Part shown: one piece after another, positions 20,766 through 37,582 of the stretch
Numbering within the stretch: the stretch's first letter is position 1
How the letters are laid out: each line of letters opens with the position of its first letter
Assembly: GCF_027943255.1 (NCBI RefSeq)
Contig: NC_072897.1
Location: forward strand, 22,382,044 to 22,446,043
Reading direction: 5' to 3'
DNA from: Anastrepha obliqua
Taxonomy: Eukaryota > Arthropoda > Insecta > Diptera > Tephritidae
Length of the DNA stretch: 64,000 nucleotides
The notes under the pieces: model-generated
Databases searched by the model: none
The model's input: the letters and a program-made list of their open reading frames with translations, nothing else
Told to the model about the DNA's origin: nothing
Position numbers and translations under genes: made by a program

Positions 20766-21835
20766 CCCTAGTACACACACCCGGGTACAAATATATCCAC
20801 TTCAACTTTGAAGTGTTGTAACTTTTGAACCGCTATACCTCTATACCGCTAACTTCGGATCTAGGAAGATTATTTAGTTCTGAGTTCAAATTCAAAATTT
20901 GAACCAGATCGGACCATTGGTTCAGGAGCTACAGCCTTCCAAACACATTAGATACGTAAACACACACCCGGGTTACGTTTGTACCCCAATAGGAAAAATC
21001 CTCGTAATAATAAAAAAAAACATTTTTTATATTATTTTTTTATTTGAAAAATTAAAAATATTCATTTCACACATTATTTTATTGACCTTTATTATAAAAA
21101 TTATAAAAATGCATCTTATATCTAAGGAAAATCATGGCAAATAGAGCAATTTGTTGATGTGACCGAATGTTCAAGACACATTGGCTTCTTACATTTGGCG
21201 CACAGCTTTCTGGTTTTTCTACGGCGTTTTTCCTCCTGTGCGTAACATAAATAGCAAGATCCGGGGACACAGGTTTTGGCGTGCGCACTGCGGCAGATGT
21301 TGATGCTGCTGTTGACACCATTGATTCCAGCGGTCGGTTGAAATATGCTTCAATAGCAATTTTAGTCGAAAAATTTCGCGTCACTTGACGATTTATGGCT
21401 CTGGCTTCAATAATGGGCATACACAATGCTTCAGCTAAGCTGCGCAGGATCTGCTTACGCTTGTTGTTTGTTCTCCAAGGCAACATAGGGTTATTCAAAT
21501 CGTAAACAATGTAGGCTGCAAGAGCTGTAATGTCCAACATGTTGAAGAACATCGCTAGTGGCCATCGTTTTGTTTGTCTTTGTGTTGGATATTCCGCAAA
21601 CATTTGGTCCATTCGATCAACACCACCTTTGGTACGATTATAATATTCAATTATTTCAGGTTTCCCACTGTCAGCTATTTCAGCATCATTATGCATGGTC
21701 GAAAGCAAAATTACTGCTTTATTTTTTTTGGGAACATAAGAGCACATTGTCACATTATTTTTGAAGCCAAATGTCGTTGAACCAATTGTCCTGTTTTTGT
21801 TCTGCTTCATTTCTTGAGGAATATATGATTTGGGC
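20766..21835 (-). mobile_element. piggyBac-like element, 3' half only
   Basis: Terminus CCCTAGTACACACACCCGGG follows TTAA, as in piggyBac. A related CACACACCCGGGT block recurs near 20960 as a subterminal repeat. The other end was lost where Ty3 integrase sequence begins at about 21836. Confidence 0.8.
21122..21835 (-). pseudogene. piggyBac transposase, C-terminal half
   Basis: The minus strand reads IIEYYNRTKGGVDRMDQMFA, containing the third catalytic Asp of piggyBac, then RWPLAMFFNMLDITALAAYI. A frameshift near 21265 hides the Cys-rich C-terminus. In the adjacent frame it reads CYLCYAQEEKRRR, KLCAKCKKPMCLEH and CSICHDFP, ending at the stop at 21122-21124, which is the RING-like zinc finger of the family. 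The N-terminal domain and the first two Asp are absent. The Ty3 integrase stop and this ORF are in the same frame across the junction. Confidence 0.9.
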
Positions 21836-23139: not shown

Positions 23140-23429
23140 CCCCCGCTTTTTCTGAAATAGTGTCCGCACAATTTTCTAGTCTACTTGAAAAATCTGCCAC
23201 TTTATTTTCTTTTCCTTTTAGGTATTCTATCTCAAATTGGTATTCTCCTAATTTTAATAGCTATCGCTGGTGCCTAGGTGTCATGTCTTTTCCTTTGTAT
23301 TTGGAATGGAGATATTTAATTGGCTGGTGATCAGTAAGGATTTTAAATTTTTTACCATAGATGTAAGGCCTAAAATAATTTACACTCCACATTATTGCTG
23401 GGAATTCTTTATCCGTTGCAGAATATTTT
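23140..23429 (-). pseudogene. Ty3 RNase H fragment
   Basis: On the minus strand: YSATDKEFPAIMWSVNYFRP, LTDHQPIKYLHSKYKGKD, then an in-frame stop near 23265, then LGEYQFEIEYLKGKENKVAD. This is the RNase H domain of Ty3-type pol. Its start is exactly what should follow SRTLNNHEK at the end of the RT frame at 25612, showing that the sequence between was inserted later. Confidence 0.85.
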
Positions 23430-23501
23430 GAAGTGAAAACTTCTTTAGAATCGTTGGGAGTGATTTGAGGAAAAGTGAAACGAAAAAGCGACCCTCTTGG
23501 C

Positions 23502-23699
23502 TACGAAGCGTTATATTATATGTTGATATAAACGTAGCGACGAACTTAATAAAAATAACTTTTATTTTTTCTTGTGATTCGAACCAAGGATTTTGGATCG
23601 GAAGCTCACATTGCTAGTCGCTCGGCTACCGCGCCATGCTGTCGTCGCTGGCCTGAAAGTTATTTAGTTACGAAGCGTTATATTATATGTTGATATAAA
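23502..23699 (-). repeat. tRNA-like block flanked by 31-bp direct repeats
   Basis: TACGAAGCGTTATATTATAT plus TGTTGATATAA recurs at 23502-23532 and 23669-23699. Between them the minus strand (about 23643-23571) has an A-box-like GTAGCCGAGCGACTAG and a B-box-like GGTTCGAATC, then an A-rich tail. Acceptor-stem pairing is not convincing, so a SINE or decayed tRNA gene is more likely than a working tRNA. The long repeats look like a target duplication. Confidence 0.45.
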
Positions 23700-23735
23700 T
23701 ATTATGTGTTGATATAAATAATTTTTGTGAGCGTG

Positions 23736-23757
23736 TAATTCTCAAAAGGTTTATTAG
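23736..23757 (+). promoter_or_regulatory. snRNA promoter element (PSEA-like), unit 1
   Basis: TAATTCTCAAAAGGTTTATT resembles the fly PSEA of snRNA genes. The same block precedes all four U2-derived units. In unit 3 it lies at -62 to -41, the expected distance. Here the region between it and U2 position about 30 is deleted. Confidence 0.65.
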
Positions 23758-23776
23758 AAAATCTATTGACTAGGTA

Positions 23777-23938
23777 GTGTGGTATCTGTTCTTATCAGCT
23801 TAACATCTGATAGATCCTCCATCGGAGGACACCAAATGTTAAACGGATTTTTGGAAATGGGCGGAGTGTTTTAGAGACTTGCTCTCCACCTCTACCACGG
23901 GTTGGCCCGGTATTGCAGTACCGCCGGGATTTCGGCCT
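23777..23938 (+). pseudogene. U2 snRNA-derived unit 1 (5' end missing)
   Basis: Matches fly U2 from about nucleotide 32 to near the 3' end: GTATCTGTTCTTATCAGC, CATCTGATAG, CCTCCATCGGAGGAC (stem-loop IIb), AAATGTTAAACGGATTTTTG with the Sm-type site ATTTTTGG, and GGCCCGGTATTGCAGTACCG (stem-loop IV). The first 30 nt are absent and the branch-site-pairing GTAGTA is GTGGTA, so it should not work in splicing. An snRNA-type promoter block remains 41 bp upstream. Confidence 0.85.
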
Positions 23939-24165
23939 TGAATAAATACAAGAAGAAATATACTAATACATTTAGCTTTGGTGGGAAGAGGCATAAATTT
24001 TTATATGAATACAAGTAGACGAAAATGGAATTTATTTTTTTTTTTGAAATTTGCATTGTAGGACATTTCTGATTATTTATTGAAAACAGTTTTTTGGTTT
24101 AGATACTGAAAGTCAGTTTAAGTGAATCGGTATAAATATTTCGTACATTAATTTTTGTGAGCGTG

Positions 24166-24187
24166 TAATTCTCAAAAGGTTTATTAG
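24166..24187 (+). promoter_or_regulatory. snRNA promoter element (PSEA-like), unit 2
   Basis: Identical to the element of unit 1, 41 bp before the U2 homology. The preceding AAGTGAATCGGTATAAATAT block is shared with unit 3. Confidence 0.65.
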
Positions 24188-24206
24188 AAAATCTATTGAC
24201 TAGGTA

Positions 24207-24367
24207 GTGTGGTATCTGTTTTTATCAGCGTAACATCTGATAGATCCTCCATCGGAGGACAACAAATGTTAAACTGATTTTTGGAAATGGGCGGAGTGTT
24301 TTAGGGGCTTGCTCTCCACCTCTGACACGGGTTGGCGCGGTATTGCAGTACCGCTGGGATTTCGGCC
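24207..24367 (+). pseudogene. U2 snRNA-derived unit 2 (5' end missing)
   Basis: Same structure and breakpoint as unit 1, about 430 bp downstream: GTGTGGTATCTG start, IIb stem CCTCCATCGGAGGAC, CAACAAATGTTAAACTGATT with the Sm-type site following, and the stem IV region with GGCGCGGTATTGCAGTACCG. Differences from unit 1 are scattered single bases. The 3' flank (AATAAATACAAGAAGAAATA) is also shared, so unit plus flanks duplicated as DNA. Confidence 0.85.
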
Positions 24368-24540
24368 TTGAATAAATACAAGAAGAAATATATTAATACA
24401 TTTAGCTTTGGTGGGAAGAGACATAAATTTTTATATGAATACAAGTAGACGAAAATGGATTTTTTTTTTTTAATTTGCATTGCAGGACATTTCTGATTAT
24501 TTATTGAAAACAGTTTTTTTTTTATTAAAATTGATTATAG

Positions 24541-24998
24541 AAGAAAATTAAATTTTTTCCAAGGTGAATTCATACACTAAGCTAAGTAAAACGTTTCGTA
24601 ATTCAATTTTATGTTGACATCCAAATGTACACGACGGAAGAAAAAAATAACAAATCAGCTGTGTTATTGCTACCACCTCCAAAAGATTCCCCTTGATTTT
24701 TCATATAAAAATTATAAATATCATCACTTGTGACAACTGTACCCAGTCGGTCGACAGTGTGTGAATCATCTTTAAATTCTGCAAGAATACCCTAACCTGC
24801 GCAGCGCACAGTAAAATCGACACAAAGCTGAGCGCAGAGCACAATCGTACAAACACACTAACGTACATACATACATATATACGCTCGAATACATTTTCTT
24901 ACTGTGCTCAGCCAAGGCTGGTAGTCATGCACTGTGGCGATATGAACGCACAAATGCACATACACAGGCACGAACATGAAATCAAACAGCTCGCCGTG
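24541..24998. other. Unassigned block between U2 units
   Basis: Separates the 3' flank of unit 2 from the 5' flank of unit 3. It holds the TTAA (24772-24775) that is occupied by piggyBac in copy A2. No coding motif; part overlaps a minus ORF (24858-25283) without known domains. Confidence 0.5.
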
Positions 24999-25047
24999 TT
25001 TAAGTGAATCGGTATAAATATTTCGTACATTAATTTTTGTGAGCGTG

Positions 25048-25069
25048 TAATTCTCAAAAGGTTTATTAG
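25048..25069 (+). promoter_or_regulatory. snRNA promoter element (PSEA-like), unit 3
   Basis: The TAATTCTCAAAAGG block begins 62 bp upstream of the U2 start ATCGC at 25110, the spacing known for fly snRNA genes. TAATGACAAG at about -34 to -25 sits where the second element (PSEB) should be; no TATA box, as expected for polymerase II snRNA genes. Confidence 0.7.
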
Positions 25070-25109
25070 AAAATGTAATGACAAGGTAGTTTGTTGGTTG
25101 TGTATGGTT

Positions 25110-25226
25110 ATCGCTTCTCGGCCTTATGGCTAAGATCAAAGTGATCAAATGGGCGGAGTGTTTTAGGAGCTTGCTCCACCTCTGCCACGGTTGGCCCGGT
25201 ATTGCAGTACCGCCGGGATTTCGGCC
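25110..25226 (+). pseudogene. U2 snRNA-derived unit 3 (internal deletion)
   Basis: Starts with the U2 5' end, ATCGCTTCTCGGCCTTATGG then CTAAGATCAAAGTG. It jumps after position 34 to ATCAAATGGGCGGAGTG and continues through GGAGCTTGCTCC and GGTATTGCAGTACCGCCGGG. The branch-site sequence, stem-loops IIa and IIb and the Sm site are deleted (about 75 nt), so any transcript could not form a U2 particle. It complements units 1 and 2, which keep the middle but lack the 5' end. Confidence 0.88.
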
Positions 25227-25313
25227 TTGAATAAATACAAGAAGAAATATACAAATACATTTAGCTTTGGTGGGAAGAGACATAAATTTTTATATGAATA
25301 CAAGTAGACGAAA

Positions 25314-25514
25314 ATGGAAGAAATTTGTAAGTCTGTTTCTTCGGTCCGTTTGGGTATTTTTTTTGACAACATCGAAACCAAAGCATTTGTATCATATTTT
25401 ATCTATCATAAGCCACTCGTACATTTGTTGAAATTGAAAACATTGAGGATGAATAATGATAAAATGAAGAAAATAAAATATGAACTTTATAGCAATATTA
25501 TAATGAACCTATAA
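25314..25514 (+). pseudogene. Plus-strand RNase H-like scrap beside U2 unit 3
   Basis: 66 codons. YHKPLVHLLKLKTLRMNNDK and KIKYEL resemble the DHKPL...KLxR..YEL stretch of Ty3-type RNase H, but in the opposite orientation to the surrounding Ty3 element and not from the same family. Too short to be sure. Confidence 0.35.
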
Positions 25515-25605
25515 TTATCCCGCTCCTAATGCTGCTTTCGTCTTATTCTCTCTCAGTTTGTTTTACGGAAGGTTTCACTTCTATCGAGTCTAACCGTTAG
25601 ACTGG

Positions 25606-27500
25606 TATTTTTTATTTTCTCATGGTTATTTAATGTTCTTGAAGCGTAGCACACTGGGTGACCTTCTTGCGATAGTACCGCACCAATCGCATAGTTAAAT
25701 GCATCCGTTGTCAATGTGAATTGTCTATTGAAATCGGGATAACATAGAATAGGATGTGTACTTATTAATGTTTTTAACTTTTCGAAAGCTTCAATGTTTG
25801 TTGGGTCTTTTACATTAATTTTTGTACCTTTCTTTAAGTATTTTGTTATCGGTTGGGCTACTTTCGCATAATCTTTTATGAACTTGCGATAACAACCTGT
25901 TATTCCCAAAAAACTTTTTGTCTGTTTTTCGGTTTTGGGTAATTCTAAGTTTTGGATAATTGTAATTTTATTTGGATTTGGTTTCATGCCATCCTTTGTT
26001 AAAATGTGCCCTAAAAATTCTGTTTTTTTTTTAGAAAATTGCATTTGCTAAACTTGTATCTTCAAATTTTTACTTTCGAGAATTATGAAAATGTCTCTTA
26101 TTGCTATAATATGCTCAGTTAAAGAAGTACTAAAGCTTAGTATATCATCTAAGTATATGTTACCACACAGGTTTTGTTAATATGATCTCTCAAGATTTCA
26201 TTCATCAGCCGTTGCAATGTGGCTGGCGCATTTTTAAGACTAAATGGCATCCTTATAAATTCATATAGACCATGAGGAGTTACGAAGGCAGTTTTTTCTC
26301 TGTCTTCCTCCTTTACTAAAATCTGATGATAGCCTTTCGCTAAGTCTAATGTCGTAAAATATTGCGCTCTACCTAATTTGTCTAGAATTGAGTCTATATT
26401 GGGTAAAGGATATTTGTCGTCTAAGGTTATTTCATTAAGCTTTCTATAATCAATAACTATTCTATATTTTTTTTCGCCTGAATTATCCGATTTTTTTGGG
26501 TACGACTATAAGTGGGCTTGCATATCTTGAATGGTTTTTTCTAATTATACCTTGTTCCTCCATTTCTGTGATCTGCTTCCTTACTTCTGCTTAGTGTTGA
26601 GGTGGGTATCTATATAGCTTTGAATAGATTTGCTGTTGTGTAATGGTTTTTATCTCATGCTGAATTTCTGTTGTATTAGTTAATACATCGCCTTCTCTAA
26701 ACAATAATTTGTTATATCGGTTTAGCAATTTTATAATTTCACTACGTTCTTCATTATTTAAATGATTTAATTGAAGCCTTTCGAATTTAGGATCACCAGT
26801 TTCAAGCATGTAAATTTGATTAAATTTATAGGTATGGGTTATTAATAAAATAAGATATTTTTCCATTTAGTGTTATTTGTCGTTTTTCTATATTTATTTG
26901 GGCATTTAAAAAGTTTAATATATCGATACCTATAATGAAATCATAAGTTCTCCCTTTTAATGGGGTGATCTTCCAACGAATCCTGGCATTGTTAGGTAAA
27001 TTAAATTGCTCCGGGCTTTTTGTATGTACTTCATAATTTATTGTATCTTTATTTGTACTAAATGTTATGGGATATTTTAATTTATATATATCAAATTAAT
27101 TTATTTCCTTATTAATTAAACTGAGACTGGCATCTGTATGTATTAGTGCTACGTATTCTTTATTTACGATCTTTAATGTTATCTTTGGCAGGCATTCAGT
27201 GGCTGCCTCGTAAAAAAATGGTATTATTAATTTCAGGTCCTTCTGGGCTTTGCCTATCCATGTTTAAGCGATCTTGGCCAAACTTATGATTAGGGTGTCC
27301 TGCCACTCGAGGATTGCTATAACACCTTTCAATATTGTCCATTTCCATGGGTTCCGTGCGGTTTTGTCTAGGCGGTTGCCAGCGAACTTGGTTGGAAAAC
27401 GGCCTAGCGTGTCCCACTTGTGGCACACGTTGGAAATGTCTTGGGGTGTTATTATTTCTTTTATCATTTTGGAATCTGTATCTTCCCGAATTATTTAAAG
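25606..27500 (-). pseudogene. Ty3 protease and reverse transcriptase, copy A1
   Basis: On the minus strand: remnant zinc knuckle near 27420; protease-like HTDASLSLIN near 27140; FIIGIDILNF near 26930. RT runs from about 26590, with an in-frame stop just before AEVRKQITEMEEQGII and then [27 protein letters not shown] and [16 protein letters not shown]. The active site [10 protein letters not shown] near 26145 sits after a frameshift, followed by KTEFLGHILTKDGMK near 26030 and ASRTLNNHEK at 25612. Several lesions; the same stop occurs in copy A2, so it predates the duplication. Confidence 0.88.
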
Positions 27501-29799
27501 GATTATTAAAAGCGTTTTGCTCTTCGCGCCTATAAAAATCATTAGTCCACTTATTTCTTTCTTGAAATTGTAGGTTTTTTACAAGTAGACGAAAATGGAA
27601 TTTTTTTTTTAATTTGCATTGCAGGACATTTCTGATTATTTATTGAAAACAGTTTTTTTTTATTAAAATTGATTATAGAAGAAAATTAAATTTTTTCCAA
27701 GGTGAATTCATACACTAAGCTAAGTAAAACGTTTCGTAATTCAATTTTATGTTGACATCCAAATGTACACGACGGAAGAAAAAAATAACAAATCAGCTGT
27801 GTTATTGCTACCACCTCCAAAAGATTCCCCTTGATTTTTCATATAAAAATTATAAATATCATCACTTGTGACAACTGTACCCAGTCGGTCGACAGTGTGT
27901 GAATCATCTTTAACCCTCTAGTGCATAACAGTGCCTTTAGGCAATGCTTGCTTTGCAATAGAATTTTGAATTATTATGTAACTTTTTTATTTGAAAAGTT
28001 AAACGGGCATATTTTATACAGTTTTATGACTCTTTTTTGATATGCAAAGTTTTTACTTCACTCGCCATTATGTAATGAATGGCAGTTGTCCGCGAGAAAC
28101 TGAGGATTGAGCATGCATAAAATAGTTGTGTGAAAAGTGTAAACTTTTAAGTATTTGTTCGCTGTTAATTTATATAAAGAAAGTGATAAAAAAATTCAGG
28201 TAAGTTATTTCATGTATTTTCAATGATATTCAGTTGTCAAAAGTGTTAGCTTTATGTATACTTCATTAGGGTGACTTTTCAAAGTTTCAATGCCTAAAGG
28301 CACCAGCATGCAGTTACCATGTGAATACTCTTTTGTAACGAACTTCTCTCTTTTGAAAATTTTAGAGTTAAAATGAATGGTTGGAAAGAAAAAATGCAAA
28401 ACAAGGTTTCAAGTTTGACTGAAAAAGAAATTGAGGAGTTTCTGAACACTATTGATCTTATAGATGAGGAAGGCAGTGGTGACGTGGTCTCAACGGATGA
28501 TGAAGATATAGATGACGGTATCAACTTGGTTGACAAATTCAGTTTTGGCTGTGGCGAACTGGGCATAAGTGTATCAGATCTAAATTTAACTTTGGTTACG
28601 CCTACAGCTTCCGTAGCTAGGGAAGAATCAAGTGAAAATTTACATGGTGACAGTACACCACCAGCTCCTCCAAAAAGGCCTAAGACGTGCGCAGGGGTCA
28701 GTAGTTATATATTCAGGAGATTTGATGGAAATGTTGTCCAGATGCGACAGAAGGATGAGGAAATAAGCAAAATAGTGTGGAAAAAAAAGCATGAAAGTTC
28801 ATGAAGATCAAATCAAATTCCAATGCCCGGATATGTCTGGTTTCGTACAATTAACTACTCCATATAAGTGTTTTTGCTACTTTGCTGATGAACATTTTTT
28901 TTCTACTATTGCAAATGAAACGAACTTATACGCGAGGCAGAAACTGATAGATACATCTTTTGTATGTACGGCTAATGATATTCGGCGCTATATTGTAATA
29001 CTTATTTTTATGTCAGTTTATAAATATCCAAGTGTTCGGTCATATTGGGGCCGACATGGTTTTGGGGCTATTCGTACAACAATGCCTGTAAACCGTTTCG
29101 AGGAGATAAATAGATTCATACACTTCGCTGATAATGCACAACGACCGGAAAAAAGCTCCGAGGATTATGACGTCATTTATAACGTGAGAAGGGTCATTGA
29201 TCATTTCAATATAAAGTTTTCTTCTATTCCAATGCCTCAAAGATTACACGGTGTGGCAAAAAAAAAAAAATTAAATATACTTTTATGGAGACCTAGCACG
29301 ATTTGTGGCTATAGAAAAACTAAAAAAAATGGTATAGGAGAAATTTCCAATACACCCCCAAAATCTCATTTTATGGCCACAAAACCGTTTTTCAGTAGGT
29401 TGATGTGAAGAATCACTCCTAACTTCGCCAATTTCCATCCGATTTCGAATTTGTTGTTTTAGTTCGAAAGAACAAAAACAAGCCTTTTTGGCAGTGTGTT
29501 GACAATTTTTCTGAAATGACAACTGACGAGACTGTAGACGGAAGTATTCGGAATTTTTTTATTTTTTCTCTATTTTTTCAACTTTGACATCATTTTTGCG
29601 ATATTATCCGATATTGAGGATGTTTTTTAGTACACTACTGTTATAGTGAATTTAATTCTGCGTCGAATGAGCTATATTTGACTGTAATTGAATTAAAATT
29701 CATAAAGTTGTGCGAGTTTTAAGATTTATTTTTTTTACTAATTTTATAGCAAGTGTCAGTATAAACACATCATCAGTACGAAACAGTACCCTTACTATC

Positions 29800-30533
29800 T
29801 TTTTGAGTGGGATAGCCGTGCCCCGAATCGCTATGCAAAATCTGAATGGCCAACACGTCAACTCTACAAAATTGGTCAAAAAAATGTTTTGAACCCTCCA
29901 CTTGTCCGACCAGAAAATGTTATCTTGCCACCACTGCTCCTGAAACTTGGGTATGCGAAGCAGTCTAAAGTCTAAACTAAAAGTCGATGGCGAAGCGTTC
30001 CGTCACCTGAAAGAAGTTGCATTCCCTAAAGTCAGCGATGCAAAGCTAAAAGGAGGTAACACATTATTCTCATATTTGTTAATAGTAGTTTACAGTTTAT
30101 TACAATTTTAGGGATCCTTGTCGGGCCTCAGATTCGAAAACTCATGCGAGATGAGAAATTTACGAGTAAGCTCAGTGCAGTGGAAAGACGGGCATGGGAA
30201 AGTTTTAAATCATTGTGTGAGAAGTTCCTTGGAAATAACAAGAACTCTGATTATGTTGAAGTCGTCAAAGAGTTTTTGAGTGCGTACAAAAAAATGGAAT
30301 GCAATATGTCCATCAAGATACACTTCCTGCACTCACATTTGAATTTTTTCCCGGAAAACCTGGGCCAGATGAGCGATGAACAGGGTGAACGATTTCACCA
30401 GGAGATAGGAGTAATCGAAAAACGTTTTCAAGGGAAGAACTCCATCAACATGCTTGCTGATTACTGCTGGTCCTTGAAACGTAAAACCAGTGATGACTCT
30501 TATAAATGGAGCAGGTCTAGCAAACATTTTTGA
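29800..30533 (+). pseudogene. C-terminal part of a conserved insect repeat-protein family, with intron
   Basis: Before the intron, in shifting frames: FEWDSRAPNRYAKSEWP, NPPLVRPENVILPPLLLKLG, VAFPKVSDAKLKG. A GT-AG intron (30057-30112) is followed by ILVGPQIRKLMRDEKFTSKL, CNMSIKIHFLHSHLNFFPEN, MSDEQGERFHQEIGVIEKRF and MLADYCWSLKR to the stop at 30533. From memory this belongs to a family common in insects and Hydra, with DEHGERFHQD and MLADYCW signatures, usually associated with repeats; the biochemical role is unknown to me. The N-terminal half is absent here but a related one is at 45792-46608. Confidence 0.75.
30057..30112 (+). other. Retained spliceosomal intron
   Basis: GTAACACATT at the start and TTACAATTTTAG at the end, 56 nt. 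Joining the flanks gives a Gly codon across the junction and continues the family sequence (KLKG, then ILVGPQI). This shows the transposon carries genomic, unspliced sequence. Confidence 0.7.
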
Positions 30534-32819
30534 AATGAAGATTAGTTTTTCCCGACATCTTTTAAAATTTTAAACCTGTACTGTTTCGTACTGATGATGT
30601 GTTAATACTGACATTTGCTATAAAATTAGTAAACAAAATAAAATCTTAAAACTCGCACAACTTTATGAATTTTAATTCAATTACAGTCAAATATAGCTCA
30701 TTCGACGCAGAATTAAATTCACTATAACAGTAGTGTACTAAAAAACATCCTCAATATCGGATAATATCGCAAAAATGATGTCAAAGTTGAAAAAATAGAG
30801 AAAAAATAAAAAAATTCCGAATACTTCCGCTTACAGTCTCGTCAGTTGTCATTTCAGAAAAATTGTCAACACACTGTCAAAAAGGCTTGTTTTTGTTCTT
30901 TCGAACTAAAAAAACAAATTCGAAATCGGATGGAAATTGGCGAAGTTAGGAGGGATTGTTCACATCAACCTACTGAAAAACGGTTTTATGGCCATAAAAT
31001 GAGATTTTGGGGGTGTATTGGAAATTTCTCCTATACCATGTTTCTTAGTTTTACTATACCTACAAGTTGTGCTAGGTCTCCATAAAAGTATATTTTCACT
31101 GTCGCACAGTGTTATGCGTTGACGAACAAATGTGCGCAACCAAAATGACGAAAACAAGCATTAGGCAATATATGCCTAATAAGCCACATAAATGGGGGTT
31201 TAAACTATTTGTTTTATGTGATACTAGTGGATTTTCATATCAGTTTGAATTATATTCCGACGCTGGCGATAATAAAATGGAGGAAGAAGTTCCAGATTTA
31301 GGCGCCTCATCGAATGTGGTTGTAAGGTTATCAAAAAACATCACCGAATTTGCAAACCACATACTTTATTTTGACAATTTTTACACGTCGCTGGGCTTAG
31401 TACTTTATCTGGAAAGCAGGGGTATCCATAGCTTAGGAACAATTCGCGCCAATCGTATCATGAATTGTAAACTGGCTACTGACTCTGATTTGAAGCAAAA
31501 TAAGCGCGAGCGTGGTTATTCTGAAGAATTTGTTGGGTCAGCTTATGGAATCGATATATCAACGGTATTGTGGAATGATAATGGAAGCGTCCGTTTTGCT
31601 TCAACTTACGTGGGTATACAACCACACGGCTCCAGTACAGATACATGTTTGCAAAAATCTCGTCGATGGAATCGACGACAAACATTTTACGCATACATTG
31701 ATTGTCCACCTGATGGATAGCCTGATTGGCCGATATAAGATCCGCATAAAGACCCAGAAGTGGACGACCCGTATTTTTTATCATTTGTTAGACATGACAT
31801 TAGTTAATGCGTATGTTCTTTACAATCGTATTAATTCATTGCAACACGAACGCTTGACTCTGGCTGAATTTCGATGTGAAGTGGCAGAAGCTCTCACTAA
31901 AATAGGCCAGGATTCAGTCAAAGGCAGAGGAAGGCCATCAAACTCAAGCAAAGTGGAAAGTTTTGTTGTCGGTAAAAAAAAAGTTATATGCCAATATCAG
32001 ATGTACGTTTTGATAACGTTGGTCACTGGTGTCAATTTCGAGATCGCTCTGCAAAATTCCATTGTAAAAATAAACCTTGTAATTCGCAGACGCAATCTTA
32101 TTGTGAAAAATGCGATATTCCATTATGTAATTCATCCACAAAGAACTGTTTCAAAGAATTTCATACCAAGAAATAACTAATTCAAATACAAGTACATACA
32201 TAAGAAAGTCAAACCAATCATATAATATATATATGATATTTATAAATATATGTATTTATATATCTAATGTACATCTTAATGCAGGCAAAGATAAAAACGA
32301 ATTAAATTATTAAAAAAAAGTAATAAAAAAAATATAACTGAACGATCAAAAACGAAAATATGTGTATACTTTGATACGGTACAATGATACCTTAACTGCA
32401 TGACAGTGCCTTTTGGCAAAAATTTCTTTTCCTAATTTTTGGCAAAACTGTAGGTAAAATATCAAAAGCGATGACGGATTCGTATTCTCTGACGCTGAAT
32501 TAAGCGAAGAAAATTTTTAAATTAAAAATTAAAAAATTATGCACTAGAGGGTTAAATTCTGCCCTAACCTGCGCAGCGCACAGTAAAATCGACACAAAGC
32601 TGAGCGCAGAGCACAATCGTACAAACACACTAACGTACATACATACATATATACGCTCGAATACATTTTCTTACTGTGCTCAGCCAAGGCTGGTAGTCAT
32701 GCACTGTGGCGATATGAACGCACAAATGCACATACACAGGCACGAACATGAAATCAAACAGCTCGCCGTGTTTAAGTGAATCGGTATAAATATTTCGTAC
32801 ATTAATTTTTGTGAGCGTG

Positions 32820-32841
32820 TAATTCTCAAAAGGTTTATTAG
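32820..32841 (+). promoter_or_regulatory. snRNA promoter element (PSEA-like), unit 4
   Basis: Duplicate of 25048-25069, again 62 bp upstream of the U2 start. Confidence 0.7.
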
Positions 32842-32881
32842 AAAATGTAATGACAAGGTAGTTTGTTGGTTGTGTATGGTT

Positions 32882-32999
32882 ATCGCTTCTCGGCCTTATG
32901 GCTAAGATCAAAGTGATCAAATGGGCGGAGTGTTTTAGGAGCTTGCTCCACCTCTGCCACGGGTTGGCCCGGTATTGCAGTACCGCCGGGATTTCGGCC
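32882..32999 (+). pseudogene. U2 snRNA-derived unit 4 (copy of unit 3)
   Basis: Tandem-duplication copy of unit 3 with the same internal deletion. It has one base more (CACGGGTTGG versus CACGGTTGG), which restores the normal U2 sequence there, so unit 3 suffered a later 1-nt loss. Confidence 0.88.
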
Positions 33000-33086
33000 T
33001 TGAATAAATACAAGAAGAAATATACAAATACATTTAGCTTTGGTGGGAAGAGACATAAATTTTTATATGAATACAAGTAGACGAAA

Positions 33087-33287
33087 ATGGAAGAAATTTG
33101 TAAGTCTGTTTCTTCGGTCCGTTTGGGTATTTTTTTTGACAACATCGAAACCAAAGCATTTGTATCATATTTTATCTATCATAAGCCACTCGTACATTTG
33201 TTGAAATTGAAAACATTGAGGATGAATAATGATAAAATGAAGAAAATAAAATATGAACTTTATAGCAATATTATAATGAACCTATAA
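33087..33287 (+). pseudogene. Plus-strand RNase H-like scrap, copy A2
   Basis: Duplicate of 25314-25514 with identical translation in what I compared. Confidence 0.35.
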
Positions 33288-33378
33288 TTATCCCGCTCCT
33301 AATGCTGCTTTCGTCTTAATCTCTCTCAGTTTGTTTTACGGAAGGTTTCACTTCTATCGAGTCTAACCGTTAGACTGG

Positions 33379-35344
33379 TATTTTTTATTTTCTCATGGTT
33401 ATTTAATGTTCTTGAAGCGTAGCACACTGGGTGACCTTCTTGCGATAGTACCGCACCAATCGCATAGTTAAATGCATCCGTTGTCAATGTGAATTGTCTA
33501 TTGAAATCGGGATAACATAGAATAGGATGTGTACTTATTAATGTTTTTAACTTTTCGAAAGCTTCAATGTTTGTTGGGTCTTTTACATTAATTTTTGTAC
33601 CTTTCTTTAAGTATTTTGTTATCGGTTGGGCTACTTTCGCATAATCTTTTATGAACTTGCGATAACAACCTGTTATTCCCAAAAAACTTTTTGTCTGTTT
33701 TTCGGTTTTGGGTAATTCTAAGTTTTGGATAATTGTAATTTTATTTGGGTTTGGTTTCATGCCATCCTTTGTTAAAATGTGCCCTAAAAATTCTGTTTTT
33801 TTTTTTAGAAAATTGCATTTGCTAAACTTGTATCTTCAAATTTTTACTTTCGAGAATTATGAAAATGTCTCTTATTGCTATAATATGCTCAGTTAAAGAA
33901 GTACTAAAGCTTAGTATATCATCTAAGTATATGTTACCACACAGGTTTTGTTAATATAATCTCTCAAGATTTCATTCATCAGCCGTTGCAATGTGGCTGG
34001 CGCATTTTTAAGACTAAATGGCATCCTTATAAATTCATATAGACCATGAGGAGTTACGAAGGCAGTTTTTTCTCTGTCTTCCTCCTTTACTAAAATCTGA
34101 TGATAGCCTTTCGCTAAGTCTAATGTCGTAAAATATTGCGCTCTACCTAATTTGTCTAGAATTGAGTCTATATTGGGTAAAGGATATTTGTCGTCTAAGG
34201 TTATTTCATTAAGCTTTCTATAATCAATAACTATTCTATATTTTTTTTCGCCTGAATTATCCGTTTTTTTTTGGGTACGACTATAAGTGGGCTTGCATAT
34301 CTTGAATGGTTTTTTCTAATTATACCTTGTTCCTCCATTTCTGTGATCTGCTTCCTTACTTCTGCTTAGTGTTGAGGTGGGTATCTATATAGCTTTGAAT
34401 AGATTTGCTGTTGTGTAATGGTTTTTATCTCATGCTGAATTTCTGTTGTATTAGTTAATACATCGCCTTCTCTAAACAATAATTTGTTATATCGGTTTAG
34501 CAATTTTATAATTTCACTACGTTCTTCATTATTTAAATGATTTAATTGAAGCCTTTCGAATTTAGGATCACCAGTTTCAAGCATGTAAATTTGATTAAAT
34601 TTATAGGTATGGGTTATTAATAAAATAAGATATTTTTCCATTTAGTGTTATTTGTCGTTTTTCTATATTTATTTGGGCATTTAAAAAGTTTAATATATCG
34701 ATACCTATAATGAAATCATAAGTTCTCCCTTTTAATGGGGTGATCTTCCAACGAATCCTGGCATTGTTAGGTAAATTAAATTGCTTCGGGCTTTTTGTAT
34801 GTACTTCATAATTTATTGTATCTTTATTTGTACTAAATGTTATGGGATATTTTAATTTATATATATCAAATTAATTTATTTCCTTATTAATTAAACTGAG
34901 ACTGGCATCTGTATGTATTAGTGCTACGTATTCTTTATTTACGATCTTTAATGTTATCTTTGGCAGGCATTCAGTGGCTGCCTCGTAAAAAAATGGTATT
35001 ATTAATTTCAGGTCCGTCTGGGCTTTGCCTATCCATGTTTAAGCGATCTTGGCCAAACTTATGATTAGGGTGTCCTGCCACTCGAGGATTGCTATAACAC
35101 CTTTCAATATTGTCCATTTCCATGAGTTCCGTGCGGTTTTGTCTAGGCGGTTGCCAGCGAACTTGGTTGGAAAACGGCCTAGCGTGTCCCACTGGACGTT
35201 GGAAATGTCTTGGGGTGCTATTATTTCTTTTATCATTTTGGAATCTGTATCTTCCCGAATTATTTAAAGGATTATTAAAAGCGTTTTGCTCTTCGCGCCT
35301 ATAAAAATCATTAGTCCACTTATTTCTTTCTTGAAATTGTAGGT
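33379..35344 (-). pseudogene. Ty3 protease and reverse transcriptase, copy A2
   Basis: Duplicate of 25606-27500 with the same RT motifs and the same in-frame stop before AEVRKQI (34366). It differs by a few bases, including a deletion near 35193 that removes part of the zinc knuckle present at 27420. It joins directly to gag at its right end, so this copy sits in the original order. Confidence 0.88.
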
Positions 35345-35651
35345 TATTTCTTTCATCCCTATTTTGATTACTATATGTCCTATTCTGATTATTATAAGAT
35401 GTTTTATTATGAAATTGTCCTTTATGTTTTTCTTCTCTTCCGAATCTCTTGTATTCGGGTCTTATGCACGTGTCTTCAAACCTCTTTGATTCATTATAAG
35501 CAAAATATCTTTTAATTGTCTTTGTTCGTAAATTTTGTCGAGTAATGTCCCTTGGGTCATCTCTTTCATTGTATTCACTAAGAAGCTGTCTATGTTTGTC
35601 AAGTGTATGCCAAGTTCACCACTATAATATACTATTAACTCGTCAGTTTTA

Positions 35652-37582
35652 TCTATACTAATATTATAAAGAGGAAAACTTTGTTTGTTTGTTTGTTTGT
35701 AACGAATAGGCTCAAAAACTACTGGACCGATTTTAAAAATTCTTTGACCATTCGAAAACTACATTATCCAGGCGTAACATGGATTACATTTTATTTTGGA
35801 AAAAAATAGGGTTCCGTAAGATATTTGGATTTTTCGGACACAAACTGAAAAAAATCTTATATATAAAATAAAGTCAACTTTTTGTGTGTGTTCGCTAACC
35901 GGCCGTGTCTGCACCGAATTAAACCAAACTTACACACATAGTTAAGAAGGTATTGAAGATGGTTTCCGTATAGTTTGGATACATATTGGTGGATAGGGCT
36001 CGAGATATAGGTCAAAACGTGGACCCGGGTAACCTTCGGATGTGTATGTACAATATGGATATCAAATGGAAGCTGTTGGTGAATGCTTTAGTTCAGAGTA
36101 TTTTTCATGCCGCTCCGTGACTAGGGTCTCGAGATAGAGACCAAAACGTGGACCATAGAATGTGTATGTACAATATGGGTATCAAATGGAAGCTGTTGGT
36201 GAATGCTTTAGTACAGAGTATTTTTCATGCCGCTCCGTGACTGGGGTCTCGAGATATAGGTCAAAACGTGGACCCGGGTAACCTGTTGGTGAATGCTTTA
36301 GTTCAGAGTATTTCCATCAGCTCCGTGACTAGGGTCTCGAGATAGAGACCAAAACGTGGACCCTAGAATGTGTTTGTACAATACGGATATCAAATGAAAG
36401 CTGTTGATAAGTGCTTTAATACGGGGTAATTTTCATACCTATTGATGACTAGGGTCTCGAGATATAGGTCAAAACGTGGACCCGGGTAACCTTCGGACGT
36501 GTATGTACAATATGGGTATCAAATGGAAGCTGTTGGTGAATGCTTTAGTTCAGAGTATTTTTCATGCCGCTCCGTGACTAGGATCTCGAGATAGAGACCA
36601 AAACGTGGAGCCTAGAATGTGTTTGTACAATATGGATATCAAATTGAAGCTGTTGGTGATTGCCTTAGTACAGAGTATTTTTCATGCCGCTACGTGACTG
36701 GGGTCTCGAGATATAGGTCAAAACGTGGACCCGGGTAACCTTTGGTTGTGTATGTACAATATAGGTATCAAATGAAAGCTGTTGATAAGTGCTTTAATAC
36801 GGGGTAATTTTCATACCTATTGATGACTAGGGTCTCGAAATATATGCCAAAACGTGGACCCGCCGTGTCTTTGCACCGAATTAAACCAAACTTATGCACA
36901 TTGTTAAGTAAGTATTGAAAATGGGTTTCGTAAAGTTTGGTTGTAATTCGGTGCAGTGGCAACGGGTACAGCGTTCTTTTGAGCCAGCCATAATGTCGCT
37001 TACTTTTTTAACGCTTGGGGCGGAACTGAACTGTCAAATTGACAGTGTGAGTTACAATGTGTCAATATTTCTTTCTGATTTGGATGCCATAAGGAAAAAA
37101 CGTAAGTGCAACATGTAAAAATTGTTTGTGAATTTTTTCGGAGTGGATTTTGGAACAGTGAATAATTTCTTACGAAATTTGAGAATTTAATGTGAAATCC
37201 GAATGAAATTATGTGTTCGTGGAAAGAACAATTTTTTTCGTTTTTTTTTTTTTTTAAATATAAATGGATAATGGTTAAAAAAGCTCCAATGCTTAATAAA
37301 ACATATAAATTGAAACGAAAAATTCATGGATGATCAGGAAAAAAGACGATTGTTTATTCATATGCGTTGATTTGAAATTTAAAAAGAATCTTCTTTTTTC
37401 CTGATTTTCAATTTATATTTTATATTTACTCAAAAACAAATAGAAAAACAAAAAATATTGTTTATGCCAAAGCGCTTGAATAAAGAATAAAGAAATAAAT
37501 AATATGAAAACCATATATTTTCTGTTCTAAACCATATCTATTCTATTTTAGTGTGCCCAGCGAAGGGGGCCGGGTTTGCTAG
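35652..37582. mobile_element. Helitron (non-autonomous)
   Basis: Begins TCTATACTAATATTATAAAG and ends CTAG, lying between A (35651) and T (37583), the Helitron AT target. A GC-rich hairpin-like stretch, GCCCAGCGAAGGGGGCCGGG, precedes the end by about 8 bp. Removing the 1931 bp restores the gag frame exactly (AAG TAT AAA ACT GAC). No Rep/helicase ORF, so it is non-autonomous. The interior holds a minisatellite. Confidence 0.9.
35990..36860. repeat. Minisatellite of about 90-125 bp inside the Helitron
   Basis: About eight imperfect units. Each contains GGGTCTCGAGATA(T/G)AG followed by ACCAAAACGTGGACCC or TCAAAACGTGGACCCGGGTA, then TGTATGTACAATATGG(G/A)TAT, GAAGCTGTTGGTGAATGC and TTCATGCCGCTCCGTGACT. 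Units alternate between two versions (GAGACC and TAGGTC), a higher-order pattern. Confidence 0.85.

Follow-up and report, generated by a model that had tools for sequence, protein, structure and literature searches.

U2 small nuclear RNA genes in a dispersed HINE-like element that lies within a Ty3 RNase H gene of Anastrepha obliqua

U2 units inside a split Ty3 domain

The window analysed in this study is a stretch of 64,000 nucleotides from the tephritid fly Anastrepha obliqua (assembly GCF_027943255.1, contig NC_072897.1, positions 22,382,044 to 22,446,043 of the forward strand), in which a segment at 23426-25618 bearing units derived from U2 small nuclear RNA (snRNA) genes interrupts a decayed Ty3 retrotransposon. 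We consider this segment very probably a copy of a dispersed mobile element with the anatomy of the HINEs, which are non-autonomous Helentrons. Matches to the Rfam U2 family RF00004 (gathering score 46) were found at 23750-23945 (99.4 bits), 24180-24375 (92.7 bits), 25110-25233 (68.2 bits) and 32882-33007 (69.3 bits), and the first three lie within the segment, on the strand opposite to the Ty3 element. The sequence on the two sides makes up one split Pfam RT_RNaseH domain (PF17917), with profile positions 1-42 on the 25622 side (25622-26047, minus strand, also matching PF17919) and 46-96 on the 23428 side (23261-23428, minus strand); the reverse transcriptase stands on one side of the segment and the integrase on the other. 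The original prediction for this locus had placed U2-derived units between the reverse transcriptase and the RNase H of a single Ty3 element interrupted by an insertion; the observation held, with the units lying inside the RNase H domain.

A fourth U2 unit had been attributed to duplication. This was borne out by a 3.1-kb tandem duplication in which 24440-27579, consisting of part of the segment and part of the Ty3 element, recurs at 27580-35349 with about 99% identity, so that the match at 32882-33007 (plus strand) is a duplicate of the third unit. An element of 4.6 kb, inserted at a TTAA site, divides the second copy of the duplication.

The units have promoter-like upstream sequence and 3' flanks in common, as had been claimed, and this agrees with their derivation from genomic U2 DNA and not from reverse-transcribed RNA. 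Unit 1 (23750-23945, plus strand) lacks about the first 30 nt and reads GTGGTA at the branch-site recognition sequence, and the same 5' deletion and GTGGTA are present in unit 2 (24180-24375, plus strand). In unit 3 (25110-25233, plus strand) about nt 35-107 are replaced by ATCA, with loss of the branch-site sequence. The block TAATTCTCAAAAGG precedes unit 1 at 23736-23749, and corresponding blocks lie at 24166-24179 for unit 2 and at 25048-25061 for unit 3, all on the plus strand; the last stands 62 nt before the U2 start, a spacing close to that of free U2 genes. We take this block to be a PSEA-like snRNA promoter. Among the 16 free and element-borne genes listed, 15 have an AATTCTC block about 60 nt before the U2 start, and the remaining one (L042) has ACTTCTC. 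Between units 2 and 3, positions 24460-24997 (plus strand) derive from host sequence that preceded the source U2 gene and share 93% identity with a free U2 locus (L046).

A dispersed element with the anatomy of a HINE

When the genome of the window (836 Mb in 204 contigs) was searched for the segment and the best 40 of 2011 first-look candidates were scored, 76 matches spread over several contigs were obtained. They break off at two constant points, 23426 and about 25613-25618, even though about 130 bp of Ty3 had been included at either end of the reference. Seven copies were also compared with the entire window, using flanks of 1.5 kb, and shared no Ty3 flank with it. Since the genome copies end at the element ends without Ty3 flank, the Ty3 element is the landing site, and the whole element in the window spans 23426-25618 on the plus strand, with a core of 2178 bp (23430-25607) excluding the T runs. 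Copies at other loci had been named beforehand as the sign of a mobile element, and such copies were found, without TATTTT duplications. The original prediction had explained the segment as a capture within Ty3, that is, a single rare capture of a U2 gene cluster by a Ty3 element or recombination between the two. It is true that a single Ty3 RNase H domain is interrupted by the units, but copies elsewhere share the same two ends, and their alignments stop at these ends without Ty3 flank, which refutes a one-off capture and makes this account extremely improbable; the units are instead cargo of an independent dispersed element. The TATTTT at both junctions had been taken for a target duplication, and this was also rejected in favour of the element's own T-rich ends, since at least four Ts precede the 5' motif in 45 of 46 complete copies.

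The 46 complete copies, among them that of the window, show both end motifs and come from the loci that were read; they range from 915 bp to 3.3 kb with varying flanks. The main size classes lie near 0.92-1.01, 1.75, 2.18 and 2.61 kb, in steps of about 430 bp corresponding to one U2 unit, and in the copies counted they hold one (about 0.92-1.01 kb), two, three and four units, respectively. Eight of the 46 fall off this ladder (L053, L060, L062, L036, L009, L010 and both copies of L025). The copies are very similar to each other, with a median tip length of 0.0043 in a tree of 47 three-prime parts and the donor, which suggests that the family is very young and was recently amplified.

The plus-strand layout of the element is TTTT-GAAGTGAAAACTTC ... 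GAAGGTTTCACTTC ... AGTCTAACCGTTAGACT-GGTA-T run. By end-motif comparison and sequence reading, the 5' repeat GAAGTGAAAACTTC lies at 23430-23443 (plus strand), with TTTT before it, and the 3' repeat GAAGGTTTCACTTC, read from the sequence, at 25568-25581 (minus strand). These subterminal inverted repeats of 14 bp match at 13 of 14 positions when one is reverse-complemented, and each is itself palindromic; the first stands 4 bases from the 5' end and the second about 32-37 bp from the 3' end. A 3' hairpin at 25587-25603 (plus strand), identified in the same way as the 5' repeat, has an 8-bp stem, AGTCTAAC-C-GTTAGACT, and is separated from the T run by the 4 bases GGTA. The number of Ts at the 3' end varies between copies. 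At locus L025 two elements follow each other head to tail, separated by nothing but TTTTT, an arrangement that rolling-circle replication would be expected to produce.

Thomas et al. described HINEs as having palindromic subterminal inverted repeats of 12-15 bp, a 3' palindrome, T-rich insertion sites and variable terminal Ts (PMC4067079). The palindromic subterminal repeats, 3' palindrome and, in some copies, internal tandem repeats of HINEs and DINE-1 are all like those found here, where one to four U2 units form the tandem repeat, and the insertion is probably T-rich here as well. Helentrons with histone gene fragments are known from Culex (PMC4067079), whereas the cargo here is an snRNA gene with its promoter block and 3' flank, in some copies at full length, and unit number varies by one U2 unit. 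The oyster element Cg_HINE likewise has a central tandem array of variable unit number, but its monomers are mostly satellite-like repeats of 140-180 bp, whereas the monomer here is a gene (PMC7492417). Potential sources of transposition proteins are abundant in the genome: the best 150 of 834 candidates for Helitron_like_N (PF14214) Rep genes were scored, and six among the matches listed lie in open frames of 1501-1513 aa.

A different route for dispersal would be that of a SINE-like retroposon with an snRNA-derived head, moved through RNA by the machinery of long interspersed elements. Dispersed U2-related repeats are found in other animals as SINEU, a group of snRNA-derived short interspersed elements (SINEs) that are RNA-mediated and are not known to carry a promoter or upstream host DNA. 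An A/T run at one end of the present element would fit such a retroposon, as would truncated copies, which fall outside a set chosen by its end motifs. The copies carry the promoter block, however, and the larger classes also contain 0.5 kb of upstream host DNA and several U2 units, all between paired subterminal repeats and a hairpin at fixed ends. On these grounds a SINE-like origin was rejected as very improbable.

Several observations weigh against the assignment to HINEs or narrow its basis. At its 5' end L024 has TTTATT and no T run, and the 3' subterminal repeat is slightly nearer the end than the 38-60 bp reported for HINEs in mites (PMC4067079). The element termini were absent from the six Rep loci read (3.5 kb each), where no autonomous partner with these ends was therefore seen. 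The end bases and the apparent absence of target duplication come from copy comparison, and the carried U2 genes are known from their sequence. The 3' end motif was searched with TTTT included, and the 46 copies, being chosen by end motifs, are uninformative on truncated ones; incomplete copies were seen (L008, L026, L037, L038 and L040), and in L008 the copy is truncated at one of its ends. In 3 of the 46 complete copies (L007, L060 and L063) the insertion adjoins a similar repeat on one side. The free U2 gene L046 could itself be a decayed element copy without both ends. With these points taken into account, membership in the HINEs is well supported by anatomy, though not closed, and we conclude that the segment is very probably a copy of a dispersed HINE-like element carrying U2 gene copies and a likely promoter block, and that it probably reached the Ty3 RNase H gene through rolling-circle transposition with the Rep-helicase of another element.

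Other features of the element and its surroundings were also recorded. A direct repeat at 23510-23532 (plus strand) has its second copy at 23677-23699, and between them, on the minus strand, lies a tRNA-like stretch with approximate limits at 23573-23640, whose orientation differs between L050 and L051. We take this stretch to contain box A- and B-like motifs; ARAGORN in bacterial mode called no tRNA in the window. The 4.6-kb element in the second duplication copy (27914-32561) is flanked by TTAA at either end and terminates in perfect inverted repeats of 15 bp, CCCTCTAGTGCATAA. Certain reading frames within it seem to resemble pieces of a piggyBac transposase; the one piece scanned (28328-28801) had no Pfam match. 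A transposase piece at 21082-21834 on the minus strand (Pfam DDE_Tnp_1_7, 4.2e-16), presumably piggyBac-like, adjoins the 3' side of the Ty3 remains. The repeat-rich region of the window at 35898-37437 recurs beside the element copy in L008 and partly in L003.

Source and condition of the carried U2 genes

The free U2 gene L046 lies on another chromosome-sized contig and matches four element queries over 1.02 kb only, in 7.7 kb read; its longer pieces are 84-93% identical to the queries, and the matching segment comprises the likely promoter, the gene and its 3' flank. None of the three terminal motifs tested was present in L046 and its neighbours (7.7 kb). Another U2 gene, L048, is located about 10 kb away. 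Over U2 nt 1-190, four element copies compared with L046 differ from it at 2-4 positions; the upstream flank of these copies shows 9-10 differences in 66 sites and the downstream flank 13-15 in 58. The pattern is most simply explained by a donor that was a sister gene of L046, stayed functional until its capture and was captured recently.

A survey of U2 genes was then made on the best 46 matches by U2 score, of 51227 first-look candidates. Their flanks assign 36 of them to elements, 34 through motifs and two (L062 and L080) by eye, and leave 10 outside; 16 of the 46 were read as 0.6-kb stretches, with the element ends outside what was read. The branch-site sequence GTAGTA is intact in six of the 10 genes outside elements (L041-L044, L046 and L048) and altered in four (L055, L056, L083 and L088). 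Among the 36 element-borne genes, GTAGTA is kept in two (L045 and L047), 17 have A36>G, some with other defects, and 17 carry a lesion. The two genes with GTAGTA also retain the promoter block and the full model length, and they score 172.3 bits (L045) and 171.4 bits (L047), free genes reaching up to 174.9 bits. L045 was read with both element ends, and L047 stands outside the set of 46 complete copies. Taking full length, GUAGUA and a promoter block at about -60 as the marks of a functional U2 gene, the units of the window fall short, all of them being defective. In an alignment with human RNU2-2, A36>G corresponds to n.35A>G, which is a dominant disease allele of that gene (PMC13083260).

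Considering these results, we propose that a then-functional U2 gene may have been picked up as DNA by the element, which would have amplified recently and gained and lost U2 units by recombination or rolling-circle slippage, one copy entering the Ty3 RNase H gene with a Rep-helicase supplied by another element. Most carried U2 copies would by now be dead.

Lesions at one bond of the U2 branch-site region

The 17 lesioned element-borne copies represent eight distinct alleles, all touching the bond between nt 39 and 40 (GTAGTA/TCTG). They comprise deletions of 3 bp (L059), 4 bp (L064), 6 bp (L067 and L073), 7 bp (L066), 9 bp (L070), 13 bp (L068 and L069) and a different 13 bp (L074), and the type of L076, present in eight copies, which has 8 bp fewer with changed bases beyond, as read from the alignment only. 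Thus 8 of the 12 distinct deletion alleles in U2 nt 1-190 touch the bond. The four others are a 1-bp deletion in L045, 89-95 in L060, about 106-149 in L087 and the 5' deletion of L075, L081 and L084; insertions elsewhere in U2 occur in L067 and L073 (after nt 68) and in L086. If deletions were placed uniformly, the chance that the six alleles of the first batch would all fall at the bond is about 1e-8, a value that is descriptive only because the bond was chosen after the cluster was seen. Among the 47 three-prime parts, two larger deletions found in multi-unit copies span the bond as well: one removes about nt 34-94 (17 parts), the other about nt 35-107, with ATCA in their place (16 parts). 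The two come together under one weakly supported fork (81/76) and are perhaps not independent. Two base pairs touching the bond are also missing from L056, a free U2 gene, and a single additional base stands nearby in the closely related L055.

Non-LTR retrotransposons that target U2 offer the most specific explanation. Utopia and Keno share the same 3' flanking U2 sequence, which in the case of Utopia begins with nt 39, and insertion of arthropod Utopia occurs without target duplication (PMC4640811). Because the Rfam alignment places one extra A in U2 here, before the bond, standard nt 39 is nt 40 in our numbering, and the target bond of these elements is the site of the lesions in the element-borne genes. 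Recurrent cutting by a Utopia/Keno-type endonuclease should leave edges at or across the bond, as in 8 of the 12 distinct deletion alleles. No Utopia or Keno sequence turned up, in work that involved no direct search and no protein query. A whole-genome probe for 'not A' before TCTGTTCTTATCAGCTTAACATCTGATAG, an exact 29-base U2 stretch, found three places, L064, L056 and L089; U2 variants are missed by this probe because the exact stretch is demanded. No long element followed at the three places in the stretches read.

In L089, an element copy, the U2 gene is split: U2 runs to about nt 35-37, an insert of about 340 bp follows (445-785), and U2 resumes from nt 40, so that the patch ends at the bond. 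The insert consists of tandem copies of about 278 bp and 62 bp of a dispersed short repeat, for which the best 40 of 172 candidates were scored. Three relatives (L096-L098) have a common start, GGCGATCTG; the repeat is about 278 bp in L096, its 5' and 3' ends are partly complementary, its A-rich middle is shortened in L097 and L098, and in L097 it is bounded by a direct repeat of about 14 bp. On L089:300-1100 Rfam gave nothing but U2 matches, and it gave no match for the patch family in L096. The idea that the patch represents two truncated copies of a U2-targeting retrotransposon was dropped, since the relatives are a dispersed short repeat with a common start. This repeat, one relative of which has a target duplication, differs in that respect from arthropod Utopia (PMC4640811), and it is seemingly not U2-seeking, because none of the three relatives lies in U2. 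The loss of 2-4 U2 bases without target duplication makes L089 look like a break patched with foreign DNA.

Two other explanations of the lesions bear on the same data. Replication slippage in the GT-rich stretch, combined with ranking bias of the search, may have produced an apparent hotspot: the six deletions tested have 0-3 bp of microhomology, and the 46 matches are the top-scoring of so large a candidate set. The L064 deletion has zero microhomology, however, and ends exactly at the bond, the L076-type copies show a filler-like change, and a foreign repeat of about 340 bp ends at the bond in L089, so that we regard slippage with bias as a possible but doubtful cause. Alternatively, selection may have favoured copies with a dead branch-site U2, without any cutting of the site. 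The 17 of 36 element-borne genes with A36>G, which is not a break scar and aligns to human n.35A>G (PMC13083260), speak for selection, as does the small size of several lesions. Function could, however, be lost anywhere (promoter, Sm site or stems), yet 8 of 12 deletion alleles lie at one bond, and free gene L056 is deleted there as well; we therefore think selection rather unlikely.

Recurrent cutting at the bond by a U2-specific endonuclease is likewise held only tentatively, as a lead and not a result, because no Utopia was found, the matches sampled had been ordered by their U2 scores, and A36>G does not count as a scar. If such cutting occurred, many of the cargo deletions might be end-joining scars of breaks at the bond. 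It is conceivable, at a similarly low level of confidence, that a rolling-circle element made U2 mobile cargo and that its copies then served as decoy targets for the nuclease of a U2-specific retrotransposon; the genome would in that case preserve fossil traces of cuts at a single bond, mended through end joining, the capture of patches and point change, while one selfish element wore away the cargo of another.

Dada DNA transposons are similarly mobile DNA tied to small RNA genes; they insert into U6, U1 and tRNA genes and are not described as carrying them in the part of the account drawn on here (PMC3706591). In the openly licensed literature of PubMed Central we found no description of spliceosomal RNA genes and their likely promoters dispersed as DNA in a Helentron-like element. 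As A36>G aligns to RNU2-2 n.35A>G (PMC13083260), one may ask whether genes with this change are silent or are tolerated. Should the lesions at the bond prove to be nuclease scars, the family would serve as a natural assay, recording where a U2-specific endonuclease has cut in a germ line and how the breaks were repaired. The spread of spliceosomal RNA genes with their likely promoters as DNA may provide a route for quick change in the number and location of snRNA genes.

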